DNA of 64,000 bases from Phycisphaerae bacterium (GTDB taxonomy: Bacteria > Planctomycetota > Phycisphaerae > Sedimentisphaerales > Anaerobacaceae), in assembly GCA_028714255.1 (NCBI GenBank), contig JAQTMR010000001.1, positions 124,001 through 188,000 of the forward strand. Direction: 5' to 3'. The position numbers and the translations under genes were made by a program. Below the pieces are notes generated by a model that saw only the letters and a list, made by a program, of their open reading frames with translations, was not told where the DNA came from and did no database searches. This document shows, in pieces, positions 28,312 through 35,901 of the stretch (position 1 is the stretch's first letter; the number at the start of each line of letters is the position of its first letter).

Positions 28312-28689
28312 TTATTGCCCGCGGCCTCGACAATGGCCTCGACCGTGCCGGCCCCGGCGAAAACGATGCGGGGGCGAGCCAATGGCCTCCGGAGGAACAC
28401 TGAGTTTGACCGAGCCTCCCTGTATTGAGAGGGCTTTTCCATTGACCAGGGCGTCGGCAATTTTTTTATGCGCGGACTCGATGATTCTGCCGAAGGTCTG
28501 CCGGGAAATATTCATTTTCTCCGCAGCCTGTTCCTGATAAAGGCCCTGCAGGTCAGCCAGTCGGATTGCTTCAAGTTCATCAACGGTTAGTATGGTACAC
28601 TGCAATACCGACAAGGGGATGCCCTGAGGTTTGTAGTAGTTGACCTGCGGCAGGCAACCAATGCGTCGGCAATTTATTGGTCTTGGCAT
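28312..28689 (-). CDS. DUF134 helix-turn-helix protein, last gene of the ORP-like operon
   Basis: '[10 protein letters not shown]' at the start and '[48 protein letters not shown]' (about residues 33-81) match DUF134, a small family with a sigma-70 region 4-like helix-turn-helix common in anaerobes. The C-terminal '[16 protein letters not shown]' is Arg/Gly-rich. It is the only DNA-binding candidate in the operon and so the best guess for the protein that reads the palindrome upstream of the first gene; this is inference. Confidence 0.88.
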
Positions 28690-28711: not shown

Positions 28712-29908
28712 CTATAAATTAATTCGGGTCCCTACAGAGCAAATAAAACACCTATCAGGAAAGACCTCTTTAAATTTTTCTATAGCTTTAACGCCTGTGC
28801 AATGGCACGGGCCTATTTTTTGTACTTGATATTGCCTGAAAGCTTCAATTGTGTACTCAATCCGTTCTAAAGAAGCATTCAAAAGATGCATCCCGCCTAT
28901 AACAGCATAAATACGGTCCTGGCCTGTTAGTTTTGTAACATAATTTAAGGTATTAACCACGCCGGAATGAGCACAGCCAAAAACAACAATTAATCCATTA
29001 GGGGATTTAATAAATAATGCCTGGTCATCCAGAAGGTTATCCGGAGTATAACAGCTTTCGTCAACAAAGAACGCTCCGCCAACATCTTCAAAATCATTTT
29101 TTCGAGGAATCTGACCGGTTAGTGTAACACCGTTACATAGCTGTAAGGGTTTTTCTGTCCAGATGGCTTTATAATTTTTAACAGCTTGTTTTGCGGCCTC
29201 CGGCATACCAATTGACCGTATTTTAGAATCTTTACAGCTATACTTTGATTTTATTGCTGCCGGGTGAATATAGATAACTGCACGCGGGTTAAGTTCAAGC
29301 ACATCAGACAGGCCACCTGTGTGGTCGTAATGACCATGACTTATCACGATTGCATCAGCTTCAGCTAAATTAACGCTGAGTTCTTTTGCGTTTCTCATAA
29401 GCAAGTCACTTTGTCCTGTATCGAAAAGAATTCGCTTGTCCCCATATTCAAGCCATAGTGACAATCCGTGCTCGGCTCCGATGCTTTCAGAGGCATTGTT
29501 ATCTACAAGTGTTGTAATAGTAACCGTATTTGCTTTGACGGCGCTTTTAAAAACATAGTTCATAATCGCTTTATGGAGCACCGAAGCAGCAAGGTTGGAA
29601 CAATGATACTTATGAACAGGAAGGCCTCCGAGAGCATCTGCCACCTGTTCGTCTGTCAGTTCGCTCACATCGTCAAGATGTTTTCCCATCGCAAGCTCGG
29701 TCATCATACTACAGCATGCAATCGCCGCAGGACAGCCAAAAACCTTATATTTGATATCTGCCAGATGCTCATCGGAAACTTTTATCCATACCTGAATCAT
29801 GTCCCCGCATTCTTCTGAGCCGATTGTTCCCACACCATCAGCATCCGGGATTTCTCCGATATTTCGAGGGTTCATAAAATGTTCGAGCACCTTGTCTGTA
29901 TATTGCAT
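28712..29908 (-). CDS. IscU/NifU-type scaffold fused to a metallo-beta-lactamase-fold hydrolase
   Basis: Residues 1-125 are an IscU-type Fe-S scaffold with the ligand set intact: 'CGD' (C34, D36), 'VFGCPAAIACC' (C59) and 'HKYHC' (C103). Residues about 128-398 are a metallo-beta-lactamase fold of the DHPMRP-synthase-like group, with 'LFDTGQSDLL' and the metal motif 'SHGHYDHTGGL' (H191, H193, D195, H196). Later histidines are in 'FGCAHSGVVNT' and 'CHCTGVKA'. The reading frame is continuous across the join, and the second half begins at 'TVTITTLVDNN', which is where a free-standing enzyme of this type would start. It follows the NifX-like gene by 15 bp. Confidence 0.88.
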   Translation of the reverse strand: MQYTDKVLEHFMNPRNIGEIPDADGVGTIGSEECGDMIQVWIKVSDEHLADIKYKVFGCPAAIACCSMMTELAMGKHLDDVSELTDEQVADALGGLPVHKYHCSNLAASVLHKAIMNYVFKSAVKANTVTITTLVDNNASESIGAEHGLSLWLEYGDKRILFDTGQSDLLMRNAKELSVNLAEADAIVISHGHYDHTGGLSDVLELNPRAVIYIHPAAIKSKYSCKDSKIRSIGMPEAAKQAVKNYKAIWTEKPLQLCNGVTLTGQIPRKNDFEDVGGAFFVDESCYTPDNLLDDQALFIKSPNGLIVVFGCAHSGVVNTLNYVTKLTGQDRIYAVIGGMHLLNASLERIEYTIEAFRQYQVQKIGPCHCTGVKAIEKFKEVFPDRCFICSVGTRINL

Positions 29909-29923
29909 GGGGACAGTACCTAT

Positions 29924-30262
29924 TTAATGGTCGCAGATATTTTGGCCGCATTTTAACTCGCCGGACAGGTATTGGGATATAAGTTCCTGCGGTTCATTAT
30001 CCGGTGCGCCAACTACGATTTGAATATTGTTTTCTGTGAATAATTGGTGTGCTCTTTGGCCCATTCCGCCGGCAATTATCAGTTCGACATGCAACCCTGC
30101 GAGCCATTTCGGCAAGACACCCGGCTCATGCGCCGGCGGGACTACTAATTCCTGGCTCTTGATAGTTTTGCTATCGTTGTCAACATCAATAATAGCGAAC
30201 TGCTCACAATGGCCAAAATGCTGTGATAATTTACCGGCTGTTAATGGAATTGCTATTCTCAT
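29924..30262 (-). CDS. NifX/NifB-type (dinitrogenase Fe-Mo cofactor) family protein, ORP-like 1
   Basis: 'MRIAIPLTAGKLSQHFGHCEQFAII' and 'IIAGGMGQRAHQLFTENNIQIVVGA' are the family hallmarks. These roughly 12-kDa proteins carry metal-sulfur clusters; the Desulfovibrio orange protein (ORP), which holds a Mo-Cu-S cluster, is a member. This copy ends in 'ELKCGQNICDH', a Cys-rich tail. Four bp downstream of mrp. Whether it binds Mo, Cu or Fe cannot be told from sequence. Confidence 0.9.
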   Translation of the reverse strand: MRIAIPLTAGKLSQHFGHCEQFAIIDVDNDSKTIKSQELVVPPAHEPGVLPKWLAGLHVELIIAGGMGQRAHQLFTENNIQIVVGAPDNEPQELISQYLSGELKCGQNICDH

Positions 30263-30266
30263 TTTG

Positions 30267-31055
30267 TTATGCCTCCTTATTTATTTGAGTTTGAGTTATA
30301 GATATTGTTAACGGTTCAAACGCGTTTTTAAGAGCCTGCGTTGTTAGATTATGGTTATTTGACAGGACAAAAGGTTCCCCTGAATCACAGGCATTAACCA
30401 AATCAGCATTCAAAGGAATACTTCCAAGGAATGGGACGTTAAAATCACTGGTCAGTTGTTCGCCCCCATTACTTTTGAATATGTCTGTCCTTTTATTGCA
30501 GTGCGGACAAATAAAGCCGCTCATATTTTCAATAACTCCCAGAACCGGCAGATTCAACTGCCTGCAAAATGTAATACACTTTTTAACATCGACGACGGAA
30601 AGCTGTTGGGGAGTGGTGACAACAACAGCACCGTCAGGATTGTCCAACAGTTGAACTATTGACAACGGCTCATCACCGGTGCCGGGCGGGCAATCGACTA
30701 CGAGATAGTCAAGATTGCTCCATGAAACATCCGTTACAAACTGCTTTATAACGTTGTGTTTCATCGGCCCTCGCCAAATCAGGGCGCTGCTTTCTTCCTG
30801 TAACAAGAAGCCAACACTCATTACCTCAAGCGTGTCACTATATGAAACAGGTTTAATTTTATCGCCATCTGCATGAAGGCCTTTGTTGTTGAGATTTAAC
30901 AGCTTAGGTACGCTCGGCCCATGAATATCTATATCCAACAAACCAACATTTTTACCCTGCATCGACAGCCAGGCGGCGAGGTTGACAGCAATAGTGCTTT
31001 TGCCAACGCCGCCTTTCCCGCTTAAAACAAGAATTTTGTGTTTTATATTTTCCAT
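30267..31055 (-). CDS. Mrp/NBP35-family P-loop ATPase
   Basis: Fe-S cluster carrier ATPase of the Mrp/ApbC group. Walker A with the deviant Lys 'GKGGVGKST', 'LLDIDIHGPS', 'VVDCPPGTGDEP', and the CxxC pair 'FICPHCNKR' that bridges a 4Fe-4S cluster at the dimer interface. The start is placed at ATG 31055, which overlaps the stop of the upstream MinD-type gene (TAATG), rather than at the track's 31100. Operon partner of both NifX-like proteins. Confidence 0.93.
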   Translation of the reverse strand: MENIKHKILVLSGKGGVGKSTIAVNLAAWLSMQGKNVGLLDIDIHGPSVPKLLNLNNKGLHADGDKIKPVSYSDTLEVMSVGFLLQEESSALIWRGPMKHNVIKQFVTDVSWSNLDYLVVDCPPGTGDEPLSIVQLLDNPDGAVVVTTPQQLSVVDVKKCITFCRQLNLPVLGVIENMSGFICPHCNKRTDIFKSNGGEQLTSDFNVPFLGSIPLNADLVNACDSGEPFVLSNNHNLTTQALKNAFEPLTISITQTQINKEA

Positions 31056-31960
31056 TATTTTATTTGCCCTGTGCTTAACATATCTATTGTGGATTGCCAT
31101 AGCGACACTATTTGTTCTCTTAGCTGGTTGTTTGAATGTTCGACAACACTTTTGGCGGCGAGCTGTGCCTTGGTTACTTCGGTATCGTAAGAAATCTTAC
31201 CAATTACATTCAGGCTTCTTTTGCCGGCTTTTTTCTCGATTGCTTCTGTGATATCGGGGTTGATGTCATACTTGTTGACGCAAATTGCAGTCTGGATTCC
31301 GAAATGCCCGGTTAATTCAATAACTCTATCGAGGTCGTGCTGACCTGATAGAGTCGGCTCGGTAACAACCAATACTAAATCCGCTCCGGTGATAGAGGCG
31401 ATAACCGGACAGCCAATGCCGGGCGAACCATCCACAATTATGAAGTCCTTATTCTGCTCGGTTGCGATTCGTTTCGCTTCTTTCCGAATTAAGCTGACGA
31501 GCTTGCCGCTGTTTTCTTCGGCGATTCCGAGCCTGGCGTGTACCATAGGGCCAAACCTCGTATCTGATATAAACCATTGGCCGTTAACGGCATCTTCGAA
31601 TTCTATCGCATTAACCGGACAGAATTCCACACATACCTTACATCCTTCGCACGCAACGGGGTCAATCGTGTAAGTTCTTTCAGCTACTTCATTGGCTGGG
31701 CCGTTGAATACGGCAGCGTCGAAATTGCAAACTTCCTCGCATCTTTCGCAGCCGATACACTTCTCGGTGACAACCGAAGCCCTTTTTCCGCCGGAGAAAT
31801 CTGAACTTTGCTCTATTTTCGGCTGTAAAATCAAATGCAAATCCGCAGCATCGACATCGCAATCGGCCAGCACGGCATTTTCAGCAAGTGCGGCAAATGA
31901 CGCAACAATGCTCGTTTTTCCGGTTCCACCCTTACCACTTATAACAATAATTTCTTTCAC
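31055..31960 (-). CDS. MinD-type ATPase with inserted ferredoxin domain, copy B
   Basis: Walker A 'SGKGGTGKTS' is followed by two 4Fe-4S motifs, 'CIGCERCEEVCNF' and 'CEGCKVCVEFCPV' (about residues 68-108), then the rest of the P-loop fold ('IIVDGSPGIGCPV'). COG1149-type proteins of this plan are paired in the Desulfovibrio ORP complex. GTG start directly after the stop of the paralogue upstream. Length 301. Confidence 0.92.
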   Translation of the reverse strand: MKEIIVISGKGGTGKTSIVASFAALAENAVLADCDVDAADLHLILQPKIEQSSDFSGGKRASVVTEKCIGCERCEEVCNFDAAVFNGPANEVAERTYTIDPVACEGCKVCVEFCPVNAIEFEDAVNGQWFISDTRFGPMVHARLGIAEENSGKLVSLIRKEAKRIATEQNKDFIIVDGSPGIGCPVIASITGADLVLVVTEPTLSGQHDLDRVIELTGHFGIQTAICVNKYDINPDITEAIEKKAGKRSLNVIGKISYDTEVTKAQLAAKSVVEHSNNQLREQIVSLWQSTIDMLSTGQIK

Positions 31961-32812
31961 TTATGAAACCTTTATCGCTTTTGTAAAATCGGCAAAGTAA
32001 TGTTCGTATTCAGGTAATACGTCTATCATCATTTGGCCGGTCGAGTATGCTTCGGCGATACGTCGGTCATCCGGCAACTTCAGGCAAATGTTTATATTCT
32101 CTGCTCCGCAGTATTTCTCTACATCGTCATCGCCAATGTCACAACGGTTGATGGCAACAGCAAATGGCAGCTTCATTTTCCTGACCAAATCAACGGCCAG
32201 TTTCAAATCGTTTAAGCCAAACGGCGTCGGCTCAGTAACAAGCAGAACCAAATCCGCACCCTTGACAGCCTCGACCACGGGACAGGATGTACCCGGCGGG
32301 ACGTCAATTATCGCCAGGCAATCCTTTTTTACATATTTTTTTACTTCTCTTATCAGAGACGGCGTTCGCACGTGGCCGATGCGCAATCTGCCTTGAATAA
32401 AATCGATACCATCGGCATTTCCAATTTCGACATCTCCGATGTTAAGCGGTTTGGGCTTGATTGCATCGGCTGGACAGACACGCATACATCCGCCGCAGGA
32501 ATGGCAAAGCTGCTCGAAGGTCAGCACATTTTCTTTTATGCAGATTATGGCGCTATACTGGCAGATTTCGCCGCATTTACCGCAGGCGGTGCATTTTTCC
32601 AAATCGACTTCGGGTACGTCTATCGCAATATCCCGGCGTTGGTCGATTTTCGGCTTTAAGAAAATATGGCCGTTCGGCTCTTCGACATCGCAATCGAGGT
32701 ACTGAACCGGCCGGCCTAAACCGGCAGTATATTGGGCAAGATTAGCAGCAATAGTGGTCTTGCCTGTGCCGCCCTTGCCGCTGGCAACGGCGATGACGAA
32801 ATCGGTCGGCAT
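31961..32812 (-). CDS. MinD-type ATPase with inserted ferredoxin domain, copy A
   Basis: Paralogue of the next gene: Walker A 'SGKGGTGKTT', 'CTACGKCGEICQY' and 'CHSCGGCMRVCPA' 4Fe-4S motifs, and 'AIIDVPPGTSCPV'. Length 283. The two copies differ clearly in sequence, so they probably form a heterodimer rather than being redundant; that is inference from the ORP precedent. It starts 1 bp after the NifX-like gene. Confidence 0.92.
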   Translation of the reverse strand: MPTDFVIAVASGKGGTGKTTIAANLAQYTAGLGRPVQYLDCDVEEPNGHIFLKPKIDQRRDIAIDVPEVDLEKCTACGKCGEICQYSAIICIKENVLTFEQLCHSCGGCMRVCPADAIKPKPLNIGDVEIGNADGIDFIQGRLRIGHVRTPSLIREVKKYVKKDCLAIIDVPPGTSCPVVEAVKGADLVLLVTEPTPFGLNDLKLAVDLVRKMKLPFAVAINRCDIGDDDVEKYCGAENINICLKLPDDRRIAEAYSTGQMMIDVLPEYEHYFADFTKAIKVS

Positions 32813-32813
32813 A

Positions 32814-33182
32814 TTATTTACCTACTCCAAAATGCGGTTCTACGTTCGGGCCTGGGGCTTCAGCCAATTTGCCGTTTTTGAAAAGTTCAACGGCTTCTGC
32901 CACCGTCGCCGTTGCGCCAGTGAACAATTTGACGCCTGCGGCAGTTAAGGTGTGTTCAGCATTAGGACCACAATTGCCTGTCAGGACGGCTTCGGCGCCG
33001 GCATCGATTACAACTTTGGCCGAATTAATTCCGGCGCCGCCGGCAGCAGCAATATTTTCATTTTCAATAACATTAAAATCCATCGTTTCGGTGTCGATGA
33101 TGATGAAACAAGCTGCTCTTCCGAATCGCGGGTCAACCTGTGAATCAAGTGTTTTCCCAATTGAGGTAATTGCGATCTTCAT
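32814..33182 (-). CDS. NifX/NifB-type family protein, ORP-like 2
   Basis: 'MKIAITSIGKTLDSQVDPRFGRAACFIIIDTETM' and 'GINSAKVVIDAGAEAVLTGNCGPNAEHTL' fit the dinitrogenase iron-molybdenum cofactor family closely; this is the more typical orange-protein-like of the two copies in the operon. 122 residues. It lies directly before the paired MinD ATPases, matching the gene partnership of known ORP loci. Confidence 0.92.
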   Translation of the reverse strand: MKIAITSIGKTLDSQVDPRFGRAACFIIIDTETMDFNVIENENIAAAGGAGINSAKVVIDAGAEAVLTGNCGPNAEHTLTAAGVKLFTGATATVAEAVELFKNGKLAEAPGPNVEPHFGVGK

Positions 33183-33240: not shown

Positions 33241-33549
33241 TCAGCATTTTTTTAATTTGTCTATCATCTCCTGAACTTCTTCGGCGCCGTCCTCATACAG
33301 TTTTTTCTCATCCGGGGCCAGCTCATACAGAAGACGTAAAAATTCGCCGGCATGAACACGTTCTTCGTCAGCGATATCCACAAGTACGGCCTTTGCCAAT
33401 TTATTGTCTGTGGACTCAGCCAACTGCATATACAACTGAATGGCTTCGTATTCTGCAGAAACCATAAAGCGTATTGCCCGAATTAACTCGGTATCAGTAA
33501 GTTTTTTTGCGTTTGCTATTCCGCTGAATGGATTTCCAAATTCCGGCAT
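33241..33549 (-). CDS. ferritin-like / rubrerythrin-related diiron protein (102 aa)
   Basis: Two helices carry carboxylate/His ligands, 'AEYEAIQLYMQLAE' and 'DIADEERVHAGEFLRLL' (ExxH), the half-site pattern of ferritin-like proteins. At 102 residues it has only one helical pair, so a diiron site would need a dimer, as in encapsulated-ferritin-type proteins. No encapsulin shell gene or cargo peptide is visible. Likely role: iron storage or peroxide protection within the operon. Confidence 0.82.
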   Translation of the reverse strand: MPEFGNPFSGIANAKKLTDTELIRAIRFMVSAEYEAIQLYMQLAESTDNKLAKAVLVDIADEERVHAGEFLRLLYELAPDEKKLYEDGAEEVQEMIDKLKKC

Positions 33550-33573: not shown

Positions 33574-35271
33574 TCAAAATCCTGTACAAAATTCATCTTT
33601 TAACTGTCTGGCGGTTTTGCCTTCGGGCATTTGCTCACCTGTCATCGCCAAATACGTCGAGTAGCCACCCGGTATATGATTGGTATCAAAACCCTTTTGC
33701 TTCAAAATGCGCGTGGCGATATAACTTCTAATACCAACAGCACAATAAACGCTGATGATTTTATCTTTAGGCAATTCGTCTATCCTCTGGCGTAATTGAT
33801 TTACCGGTATGTTCACCGCAGTTGGTATGCCCCCCTGCTTGAGTTCTGAAGGCGAACGGACATCAAGCAATAATACATTCGGGTCCGAAGGTTCGAAATC
33901 CTTCACCAAAGCCGTGCCGTCAAGTATGTTGCCCGCTGCGTAGCCGGCCATATTCACAGCGTCCTTGCCGCTGCCGTATGGCGGAGCGTAAGCTAATTCA
34001 AGCTCCTGCAAATCAAAAACGCTCATACCCGCGCGTATCGCGGTGGCAAAGACATCGATTCTTTTATCAACGCCGTCTTTGCCGATTATCTGTACGCCAA
34101 GCACTTTGCCGGCGGGTTTGCTGAATAGCATTTTTATGTGCATCTGCTGGGCACCGGGGTAATAACCAACGTGATTGGCTGGATGTATATAAACCTTTTC
34201 GTAGTCGATATCAGCTTTTTTTAAATCCTTCTCGGATGCCCCTGTCATACCAACGGTCAATTCAAAAACCTTCAAGATTGCGGTGCCTTGTGTGCCTTTG
34301 TATTTAACGTCCCGGCCGCAGATATTGTCGGCTGCTATCCTGCCCTGCTTGTTTGCCGGGCCCGCCAGCGGTACCAGACAAGACCTTTTTAACACAAAGT
34401 TCTGGACTTCAATTGCATCACCAATGGCAAAAATATCAGGGTCGCTGGTTTGCAGGCTCTCATTTACTTTTATTCCGCCGGTGCTGCCTATCTCCAAACC
34501 TGATTCTTTGGCCAATTTGGTTTCCGGCTTTACGCCTATAGCAAGCACAGCCATATCGCAGCAAACTTTCATGCCTGATTTTAAGTCAACAAACAATTTC
34601 GAATCACTCTCTTGAAAACCTGCTACTGCATCACTAAGCCATAATGCAACGCTCCGGCTCTGCAGATGCTCATGCAGAAGATTTGCCATTTCTTTATCAA
34701 GGGGAGGTATTACCTGGTCGAGCATTTCGACAATAGCAACGAGCAGGCCCTGTGCCCTCAGGTTCTCTGCCATTTCCAGGCCGATGTACCCACCACCTAC
34801 AACTACCGCACGTTTCGGCTTCCGCTCTTCGATAAATTTACTGATTGCGTCTGCATTCGGTATGTTTCGCAGCGTGAATATCCGAGGCGACTCAATCCCC
34901 GGTATAGGCGGTCTCGCAGGTTCTGCACCGGGGGACAGTATTAACTTGTTATACTTTTCCGTATAGACATCCCCGGAGGATAAGTCCTTTATATTCAACT
35001 CTTTACGTTTGCGGTCAATTACCGTTACTTCACTGTTGACTCTAACATCGATGTTAAATCTGGCCTTAAATTTCTCCGGCGTTTGAACAAGTAAATCATC
35101 GCGGTTTTTTATTGTCTGGCCTATGTAATACGGCAGGCCGCAATTGGCAAACGAGATATACTTTCCTCTTTCGAATAATATTATTTCCGCCTCTTCGTCA
35201 AGACGGCGCAACCTCGCTGCTGCGGATGCGCCTCCGGCGACTCCGCCGACAATCAGAACTTTCCTTGCCAT
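33574..35271 (-). CDS. CoA-disulfide reductase / persulfide reductase with C-terminal rhodanese domain
   Basis: Flavoprotein disulfide reductase of the single-cysteine class: FAD motif 'VLIVGGVAGGASAAARLRRL', active Cys44 in 'SFANCGLPYYIG', NAD motif 'AVVVGGGYIGLEMAENLR', and 'IFAIGDAIEV'. Residues about 460-565 form a rhodanese domain with active Cys in 'VYCAVGIRSY'. CoADR-Rhd fusions reduce CoA persulfide, polysulfide or CoA disulfide. Length 565 is typical. In this operon it could supply or remove sulfane sulfur for cluster building. Confidence 0.92.
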   Translation of the reverse strand: MARKVLIVGGVAGGASAAARLRRLDEEAEIILFERGKYISFANCGLPYYIGQTIKNRDDLLVQTPEKFKARFNIDVRVNSEVTVIDRKRKELNIKDLSSGDVYTEKYNKLILSPGAEPARPPIPGIESPRIFTLRNIPNADAISKFIEERKPKRAVVVGGGYIGLEMAENLRAQGLLVAIVEMLDQVIPPLDKEMANLLHEHLQSRSVALWLSDAVAGFQESDSKLFVDLKSGMKVCCDMAVLAIGVKPETKLAKESGLEIGSTGGIKVNESLQTSDPDIFAIGDAIEVQNFVLKRSCLVPLAGPANKQGRIAADNICGRDVKYKGTQGTAILKVFELTVGMTGASEKDLKKADIDYEKVYIHPANHVGYYPGAQQMHIKMLFSKPAGKVLGVQIIGKDGVDKRIDVFATAIRAGMSVFDLQELELAYAPPYGSGKDAVNMAGYAAGNILDGTALVKDFEPSDPNVLLLDVRSPSELKQGGIPTAVNIPVNQLRQRIDELPKDKIISVYCAVGIRSYIATRILKQKGFDTNHIPGGYSTYLAMTGEQMPEGKTARQLKDEFCTGF

Positions 35272-35330: not shown

Positions 35331-35690
35331 TTACTTTTTATTTTCTGCTTCGAGTTGCCCTATTCGCTCTTTTATTTCGCCAAGGGCATCCTGGAAATAA
35401 TCAGCCTGTTGTTTCAGGCCCGCAAGCTCCTGCTCGGCCGTCATTGCCGGGGCAAACGGCGCACCGCCATAAGCGTATGGGTCCACAACGCCGCCCCATG
35501 CAGGCCCGCCGAAACCGGCTCTTGCCCGTCCGAAACCTCGGCCTCGACCGCCGCCTCTTCCCCGGCCCCAGTAACCTCGTCCGCCGACTGGATTCATAAC
35601 ACCAGGTGCCGGATAGCCGGCACAGTAACCAACAGCTCTTCCTGTCATCGGTCCCATACCAGCAGGACCTGTTCCGTCTCCACGTGGCAT
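35331..35690 (-). CDS. DUF5320-like Gly/Arg-rich protein with C-terminal coiled coil
   Basis: 'MPRGDGTGPAGMGPMTGRAVGYCAGY' is the hallmark start of DUF5320 proteins, followed by a Gly/Arg-rich middle ('GGGRGRGFGRARAGFGG') and a helical tail 'LAGLKQQADYFQDALGEIKERIGQLEAE'. Such proteins accompany NifX/Mrp genes in many anaerobes; function unknown. First gene of the ten-gene operon, 76 nt from the -10 element, with AAGGAG just before ATG. Confidence 0.85.
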   Translation of the reverse strand: MPRGDGTGPAGMGPMTGRAVGYCAGYPAPGVMNPVGGRGYWGRGRGGGRGRGFGRARAGFGGPAWGGVVDPYAYGGAPFAPAMTAEQELAGLKQQADYFQDALGEIKERIGQLEAENKK

Positions 35691-35765: not shown

Positions 35766-35797
35766 ATTATACGGCAATTATGGGCATATGCCCATAA
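35766..35797 (-). promoter_or_regulatory. ORP-like operon promoter overlapped by a perfect 20-bp palindrome
   Basis: On the minus strand the -10 is TATAAT (35766-35771) and, 17 nt upstream, TGGGCA (35789-35794) serves as -35. The -35 and half the spacer are inside TTATGGGCATATGCCCATAA (35778-35797), a perfect 20-bp inverted repeat. A dimeric regulator bound there would cover the -35. It is the only strong promoter seen ahead of the ten minus-strand genes. Confidence 0.8.
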
Positions 35798-35901
35798 TAA
35801 ATCCAGAAAAAACCGGCAAAAATGTGAGATTTTTTAAATAGTCCCCGTTTTTTGGGTGTTAAGGGGCTTACTGCTGTTGCCAGCGGGTTCTTAATTACAG
35901 T

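Follow-up and report, generated by a model that had tools for sequence, protein, structure and literature searches.

The 64-kb stretch of DNA analysed here (the window) carries a perfect palindrome ahead of an operon that ends with a gene for a DUF134 protein. This arrangement raises the question of whether the palindrome is an operator and, if so, which protein reads it and to what effect. The initial annotation had guessed that the DUF134 protein binds the palindrome and thereby regulates its own operon.

The palindrome and the operon behind it

In a scan of the whole 64-kb window, TTATGGGCATATGCCCATAA (positions 35778-35797) proved self-complementary over its full 20 bp. It is the sole perfect palindrome of at least 20 bp in the window, against 0.17 expected under a first-order Markov model, and its initial description as a perfect 20-bp palindrome is confirmed. 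No second copy was found in the 64-kb window at up to three mismatches. Across the whole 2.4-Mb genome, the 14-bp core of TTATGGGCATATGCCCATAA has no further match at 0 or 1 mismatches, and at 2 mismatches it matches 6 places, compared with 1 for the reversed control. The palindrome lies 87 bp ahead of the first gene of a ten-gene operon on the minus strand, in which Pfam confirms DUF5320 as the first gene and DUF134 as the last.

Predicted operator and operon genes (gene assignments from Pfam):
35778..35797, no strand assigned: candidate operator, perfect palindrome TTATGGGCATATGCCCATAA, from its self-complementarity and its conservation beside DUF134 operons
35331..35690, minus strand: DUF5320 protein, first gene
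33574..35271, minus strand: CoA-disulfide-reductase-like flavoprotein with a rhodanese domain
33241..33549, minus strand: rubrerythrin/ferritin-like protein
32814..33182, minus strand: NifX-like (Nitro_FeMo-Co) protein 1
31961..32812, minus strand: MinD-like ATPase with a ferredoxin domain 1
31055..31960, minus strand: MinD-like ATPase with a ferredoxin domain 2
30267..31100, minus strand: Mrp/NBP35-type iron-sulfur carrier ATPase
29924..30262, minus strand: NifX-like protein 2
28712..29908, minus strand: fusion of NifU_N and metallo-beta-lactamase
28312..28689, minus strand: DUF134 (PF02001) helix-turn-helix protein, proposed repressor, with the helix SRQTFGR that contains Arg63 and Arg68

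The window DUF134 is a PF02001 member that scores 82.9 bits against a curated Pfam cut-off of 27. Its distal position, noted in the initial annotation, holds for the window but not for many other phyla, where DUF134 comes first and follows the operator immediately.

Occurrence of the proposed operator beside DUF134

The initial annotation had also suggested checking whether the motif and DUF134 co-occur. This was done in 60 genomes of the same family, with DUF134 called at a score above 70 bits and the motif defined as the degenerate TTATNNGCATATGCNNATAA with at most one mismatch. DUF134 was present in 32 genomes and the motif in 28; 27 genomes have both, 5 DUF134 only, 1 the motif only and 27 neither (Fisher p = 6e-11). 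Retention of the motif in genomes without DUF134 was considered and rejected: it was seen in 1 of 28, a genome that is 69% complete. Conversely, orthologous operons that keep DUF134 were examined for loss of the palindrome, and it was found to be present. Same-family operons with available upstream DNA have the operator in front, with two mismatches at loci L066 and L069; where the fetched stretch lacks it, the contig ends or the site lies just beyond the stretch.

Similar results were obtained further afield. Among 198 genomes from the phylum of a Syntrophaceae relative, 64 have DUF134, as do 23 of the 28 motif-bearing genomes (p = 6e-9). Five motif matches in a Desulfobacterota-type set, all from genomes that lack DUF134, have the look of chance hits. 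In twenty genomes from other phyla there are 0-3 sites each, and the reversed control is near zero.

Scanning genome contigs with the DUF134 profile yielded 80 loci from Planctomycetota, Desulfobacterota, Spirochaetota, Nitrospirota, Omnitrophota, Zixibacteria, Elusimicrobiota, Latescibacterota, Aminicenantes, Ignavibacteria, Chlorobi and Bacteroidales. At most of these loci DUF134 is preceded by the palindrome or a close variant, as a rule 15-40 nt ahead of the start, and in many phyla the site stands directly upstream of DUF134 or heads the operon that contains it. An operator lies within 140 nt of the start, usually at 15-40 nt, in 87 of 168 non-redundant DUF134 genes, as against at most 18 of 6000 random control stretches after removal of strict matches, since these are the operators themselves. 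A palindromic site upstream of the regulator's own transcription unit is conserved among relatives. Operator variants also accompany DUF134 genes on plasmids of clostridia, spirochaetes and gammaproteobacteria, enterobacteria among them, several as tandem pairs. A prediction was tested on 16 Chlorobi/Bacteroidota loci at which DUF134 does not stand beside a site, by adding ~4-11 kb of upstream DNA. An operator with G at position 5 was found in 12 of the 16; none was found in the ~4-11 kb examined at the other 4.

The expectation of 0.17 palindromes of this length per window would leave some room for chance, or for a structural palindrome (an RNA hairpin or terminator) with no protein partner. 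Such a reading is nevertheless vanishingly unlikely and is already refuted by the conservation of both sequence and position across phyla. Furthermore, the palindrome overlaps the promoter rather than the transcript, is followed by no T-run and is nearly absent from relatives that lack DUF134.

Several loci depart from the common pattern. For the DUF134 subfamily with the helix SRPTVTRM (e.g. L207, L209 and L326), no motif was found in the upstream DNA examined. Upstream of the divergent DUF134 genes at L211, L214, L227 and L235 stand different palindromes, perfect or nearly so (TTATGCTCAAATGAGCATAA, TTTTGAGAATATTCTCAAAA, ATATGAATATATATTCATAT and TTTTGAAATATATTTCAAAA), which suggests that the recognition code has further branches. 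In a Nitrospiraceae genome (L198; G078:C93:60461 and 61265), two operator-like sites ~800 bp apart flank a NifX-like gene, and the two DUF134 genes of that genome are 7-12 kb from these sites. The DUF134-NifX units of enterobacterial plasmids (Citrobacter, Klebsiella, E. coli and others; L185, L186 and L188) often have two tandem operator-like sites, ~23-30 bp apart and ~50 nt upstream of DUF134; genes for a PaaI thioesterase and a SLAC1 channel often come next.

Covariation of palindrome bases with the DUF134 helix

AlphaFold models the helix-turn-helix region of the 125-residue window protein with a pLDDT of ~95, with helices at residues 36-47, 52-58 and 63-83, and gives its tail, which is probably disordered, low confidence. 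As the recognition helix spans residues 63-83 in this model, it carries both Arg63 and Arg68. Proteins with the helix SRxTFGR pair with TTATGRGC half-sites, and those with SRQTFGN pair with TTATTRGC.

This relationship was examined in 111 non-redundant DUF134-operator pairs. Arg68 is accompanied by G at operator position 5 in at least one half-site (75 of 76) and Asn68 by T in both half-sites (32 of 32), position 5 having been left out of operator scoring except through self-complementarity. Ser, Thr or His at residue 67 goes with A at position 7 (6/6) and Gly67 with G (93/96); position 7 was used in the scoring, which was biased against A. With the helix residues masked in tree building, the residue and base traits still show seven joint changes. 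Restricting the comparison to well-supported branches leaves three independent pairs, all in agreement, which are too few for significance alone (sign test p = 0.25). One exception is the Chlorobiaceae genome G072, which combines a T-type operator with Arg68 as its only DUF134 type; a second, Asn68 DUF134 that could explain the T-type operator was looked for in this genome and not found. A C-terminal CxxC...CxxC zinc-ribbon-like domain occurs in 26 of 38 Asn68 proteins (for example L049, L062 and L038) and in 60 of 125 Arg68 proteins.

Covariation between an operator base and a recognition-helix residue of DUF134 suggests that DUF134 itself is the binder and that residue 68 makes a base-specific contact with base 5. 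The palindrome core by itself does not reveal which protein recognises it, and DUF134 binding is a prediction; a different regulator, conserved in the same organisms, might instead bind the site and leave DUF134 a passenger of the operon. This is highly unlikely: besides the covariation, the operator tracks DUF134 across phyla and onto plasmids, and DUF134 and NifX are the genes found most regularly behind it. Taken with its recurrence beside DUF134 in many phyla, the covariation makes the palindrome very probably a DUF134 site. Conserved upstream sites, co-occurrence and covariation together lend strong support to the initial guess of autoregulation, and there is a high probability that the palindrome is the operator of the operon's own DUF134, which would act as a dimeric helix-turn-helix protein and repress the NifX/Mrp/DUF5320 operons that encode it.

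Among solved structures, the folds closest to DUF134 are those of sigma region 4 and the DNA-bound DNA-binding domain of DeoR. Compared with DeoR, the DUF134 helix-turn-helix gives a sequence E-value of 0.007 and a Foldseek E-value of 0.086, with 40% identity over 40 residues at 0.7 A. In the 3.7-A full-length complex of Bacillus subtilis DeoR, R39 touches the G of the TTGAAC half-site and R34 a T, contacts that were assigned with caution owing to the resolution (PMC11229326). The alignment and the shared five-residue spacing of the two arginines map R39 and R34 of DeoR, a SorC family member, to Arg68 and Arg63 of DUF134, which may be their equivalents. The operators are also alike, since the TGAA-6-TTCA spacing of the DeoR operator ATTGAACAAAATTTCAAT equals that of the DUF134 operator. 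The resemblance extends to a DUF134 variant, SRPTFSR, whose operator is TTATGAACATATGTTCATAA and which is similar to the DeoR helix SRPTVSR; the ATTGAA-6-TTCAAT of DeoR is spaced as in TGAA-CATATG-TTCA, the operator of SRPTF[ST]R variants. In contrast with DeoR, which has a C-terminal sugar-phosphate effector-binding domain, DUF134 proteins lack such a domain, comprise ~100-160 residues, often end in a CxxC pair and belong to operons of NifX/Mrp cluster proteins. Sigma-70/ECF region 4 shares the helix-turn-helix fold and a weak profile similarity (E = 1e-5 for TIGR02937, short of the cut-off of that profile), but reads an asymmetric -35 element within RNA polymerase, whereas the site of DUF134 is palindromic and lies next to or across the core promoter.

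Promoter geometry, regulon and proposed mechanism

The palindrome was initially described as overlapping a -35 element. The hexamers concerned, TGGGCA (35794-35789) and TATAAT (35771-35766), do exist on the minus strand 17 nt apart, but the operator of relatives normally lies between the -35 and the -10 elements; promoter-like sites in the scan that returned these hexamers are no commoner than in shuffled sequence.

Candidate promoter elements:
35766..35794, minus strand: TGGGCA-17-TATAAT, the promoter initially proposed, common to the window and a same-genus relative (L051) only
35800..35805, minus strand: TGGATT, candidate -35 ending 2 nt before the operator, a 3/6 match, proposed from the geometry of relatives
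35777..35782, minus strand: CATAAT, candidate -10 from the right arm of the operator, with a 17-nt spacer to TGGATT

Relatives with Arg68 proteins have TTGACA at the spot that TGGATT occupies in the window, and in most of them the right operator arm reads TATAAT or CATAAT. Of the 58 Arg68 cases in which a -35 can be recognised, 40 have a TTGACA whose end lies 1-3 nt ahead of the operator, and in the commonest layout the palindrome occupies the 17-bp spacer between -35 and -10. As the operator of relatives normally lies within the spacer and supplies the -10, TGGGCA/TATAAT is probably not the ancestral promoter. For Asn68 proteins, TTGACA stands 19-21 nt before the operator in 23 of 29 cases, so that the operator falls over the -10 and the start. 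Overlap of operator and core promoter, as judged by promoter consensus only, was thus found in both layouts and suggests repression; a DUF134 dimer bound as predicted would block either window promoter.

MerR-type operators are palindromes between -35 and -10, in spacers of 19-20 bp that need distortion. The DUF134 palindrome resembles them in its position but not in its spacer, which is 17 bp in the commonest Arg68 arrangement. DUF134 might bind the palindrome and activate the operon, either by contacting RNA polymerase in the manner of sigma region 4, the -35 binder that its helix-turn-helix resembles, or by MerR-like distortion of a spacer that holds the operator. Activation of either kind appears very unlikely: sigma-70 already finds its ideal spacing in the 17 bp, which speaks for repression rather than the MerR-type mechanism, many relatives have near-consensus TTGACA and TATAAT that need no help, and the Asn68 operators, over the -10 and the start, are hardly placed for an activator. 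Physical binding, dimerisation and repression rather than activation are what we infer.

It is proposed that a DUF134 dimer sets one recognition helix into each TTATGRGC half-site, using the invariant Arg63 and the class-specific Arg68, the latter reading the G at half-site position 5. Bound over the core promoter, the dimer would block RNA polymerase, and the operon would be self-repressed until DUF134 was released by a signal, which might be iron-sulfur, molybdenum or thiol status.

The genes behind operators are mainly those for DUF134 and NifX-like proteins, with MinD/Mrp, DUF5320 and NifU-MBL proteins, and in some cases TrmO, methyltransferases and ARMT1-like proteins. In a Syntrophaceae genome, a second operator precedes a separate CoA-disulfide-reductase-like gene, a homologue of the second gene of the window operon. 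In some genomes the regulon extends beyond autoregulation, since genes other than that for DUF134 also stand behind operators, as at L105 (6585), where the gene is CoA-disulfide-reductase-like, and at L138 and L148. At L125, L135, L138 and L148, TrmO-like (tRNA methyltransferase O) genes come immediately after DUF134-type operators and precede DUF134, and TrmO_N was found in 8 of 62 other genes scanned.

Open PMC papers yielded neither an operator nor a function for PF02001 (DUF134/UPF0251/COG1342), and no account of the palindrome as an operator; those that truly name the family mention it in passing only, and most of the remaining matches look like names of the DUF134x type or unrelated strings. 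DUF134/UPF0251 is widely distributed and annotated in bacteria and archaea, with no function or operator assigned in the literature searched. It is likely that DUF134 represents a widespread, unrecognised autorepressor family whose members range from Planctomycetota to conjugative plasmids of enterobacteria and control metal-cluster genes of the NifX/Mrp type by a code that can be read: base 5 is set by residue 68 (Arg-G, Asn-T), and base 7 is influenced by residue 67. An operator, a specificity residue and a predicted regulon (NifX-like proteins, Mrp/MinD carriers, DUF5320, CoA-disulfide-reductase-like proteins and sometimes TrmO) make the role of DUF134 directly testable. Sequence may then suffice to read the DUF134 regulon for uncultured phyla and plasmids alike, and the DUF134 operator would offer a way into the job of NifX/ORP-like operons.
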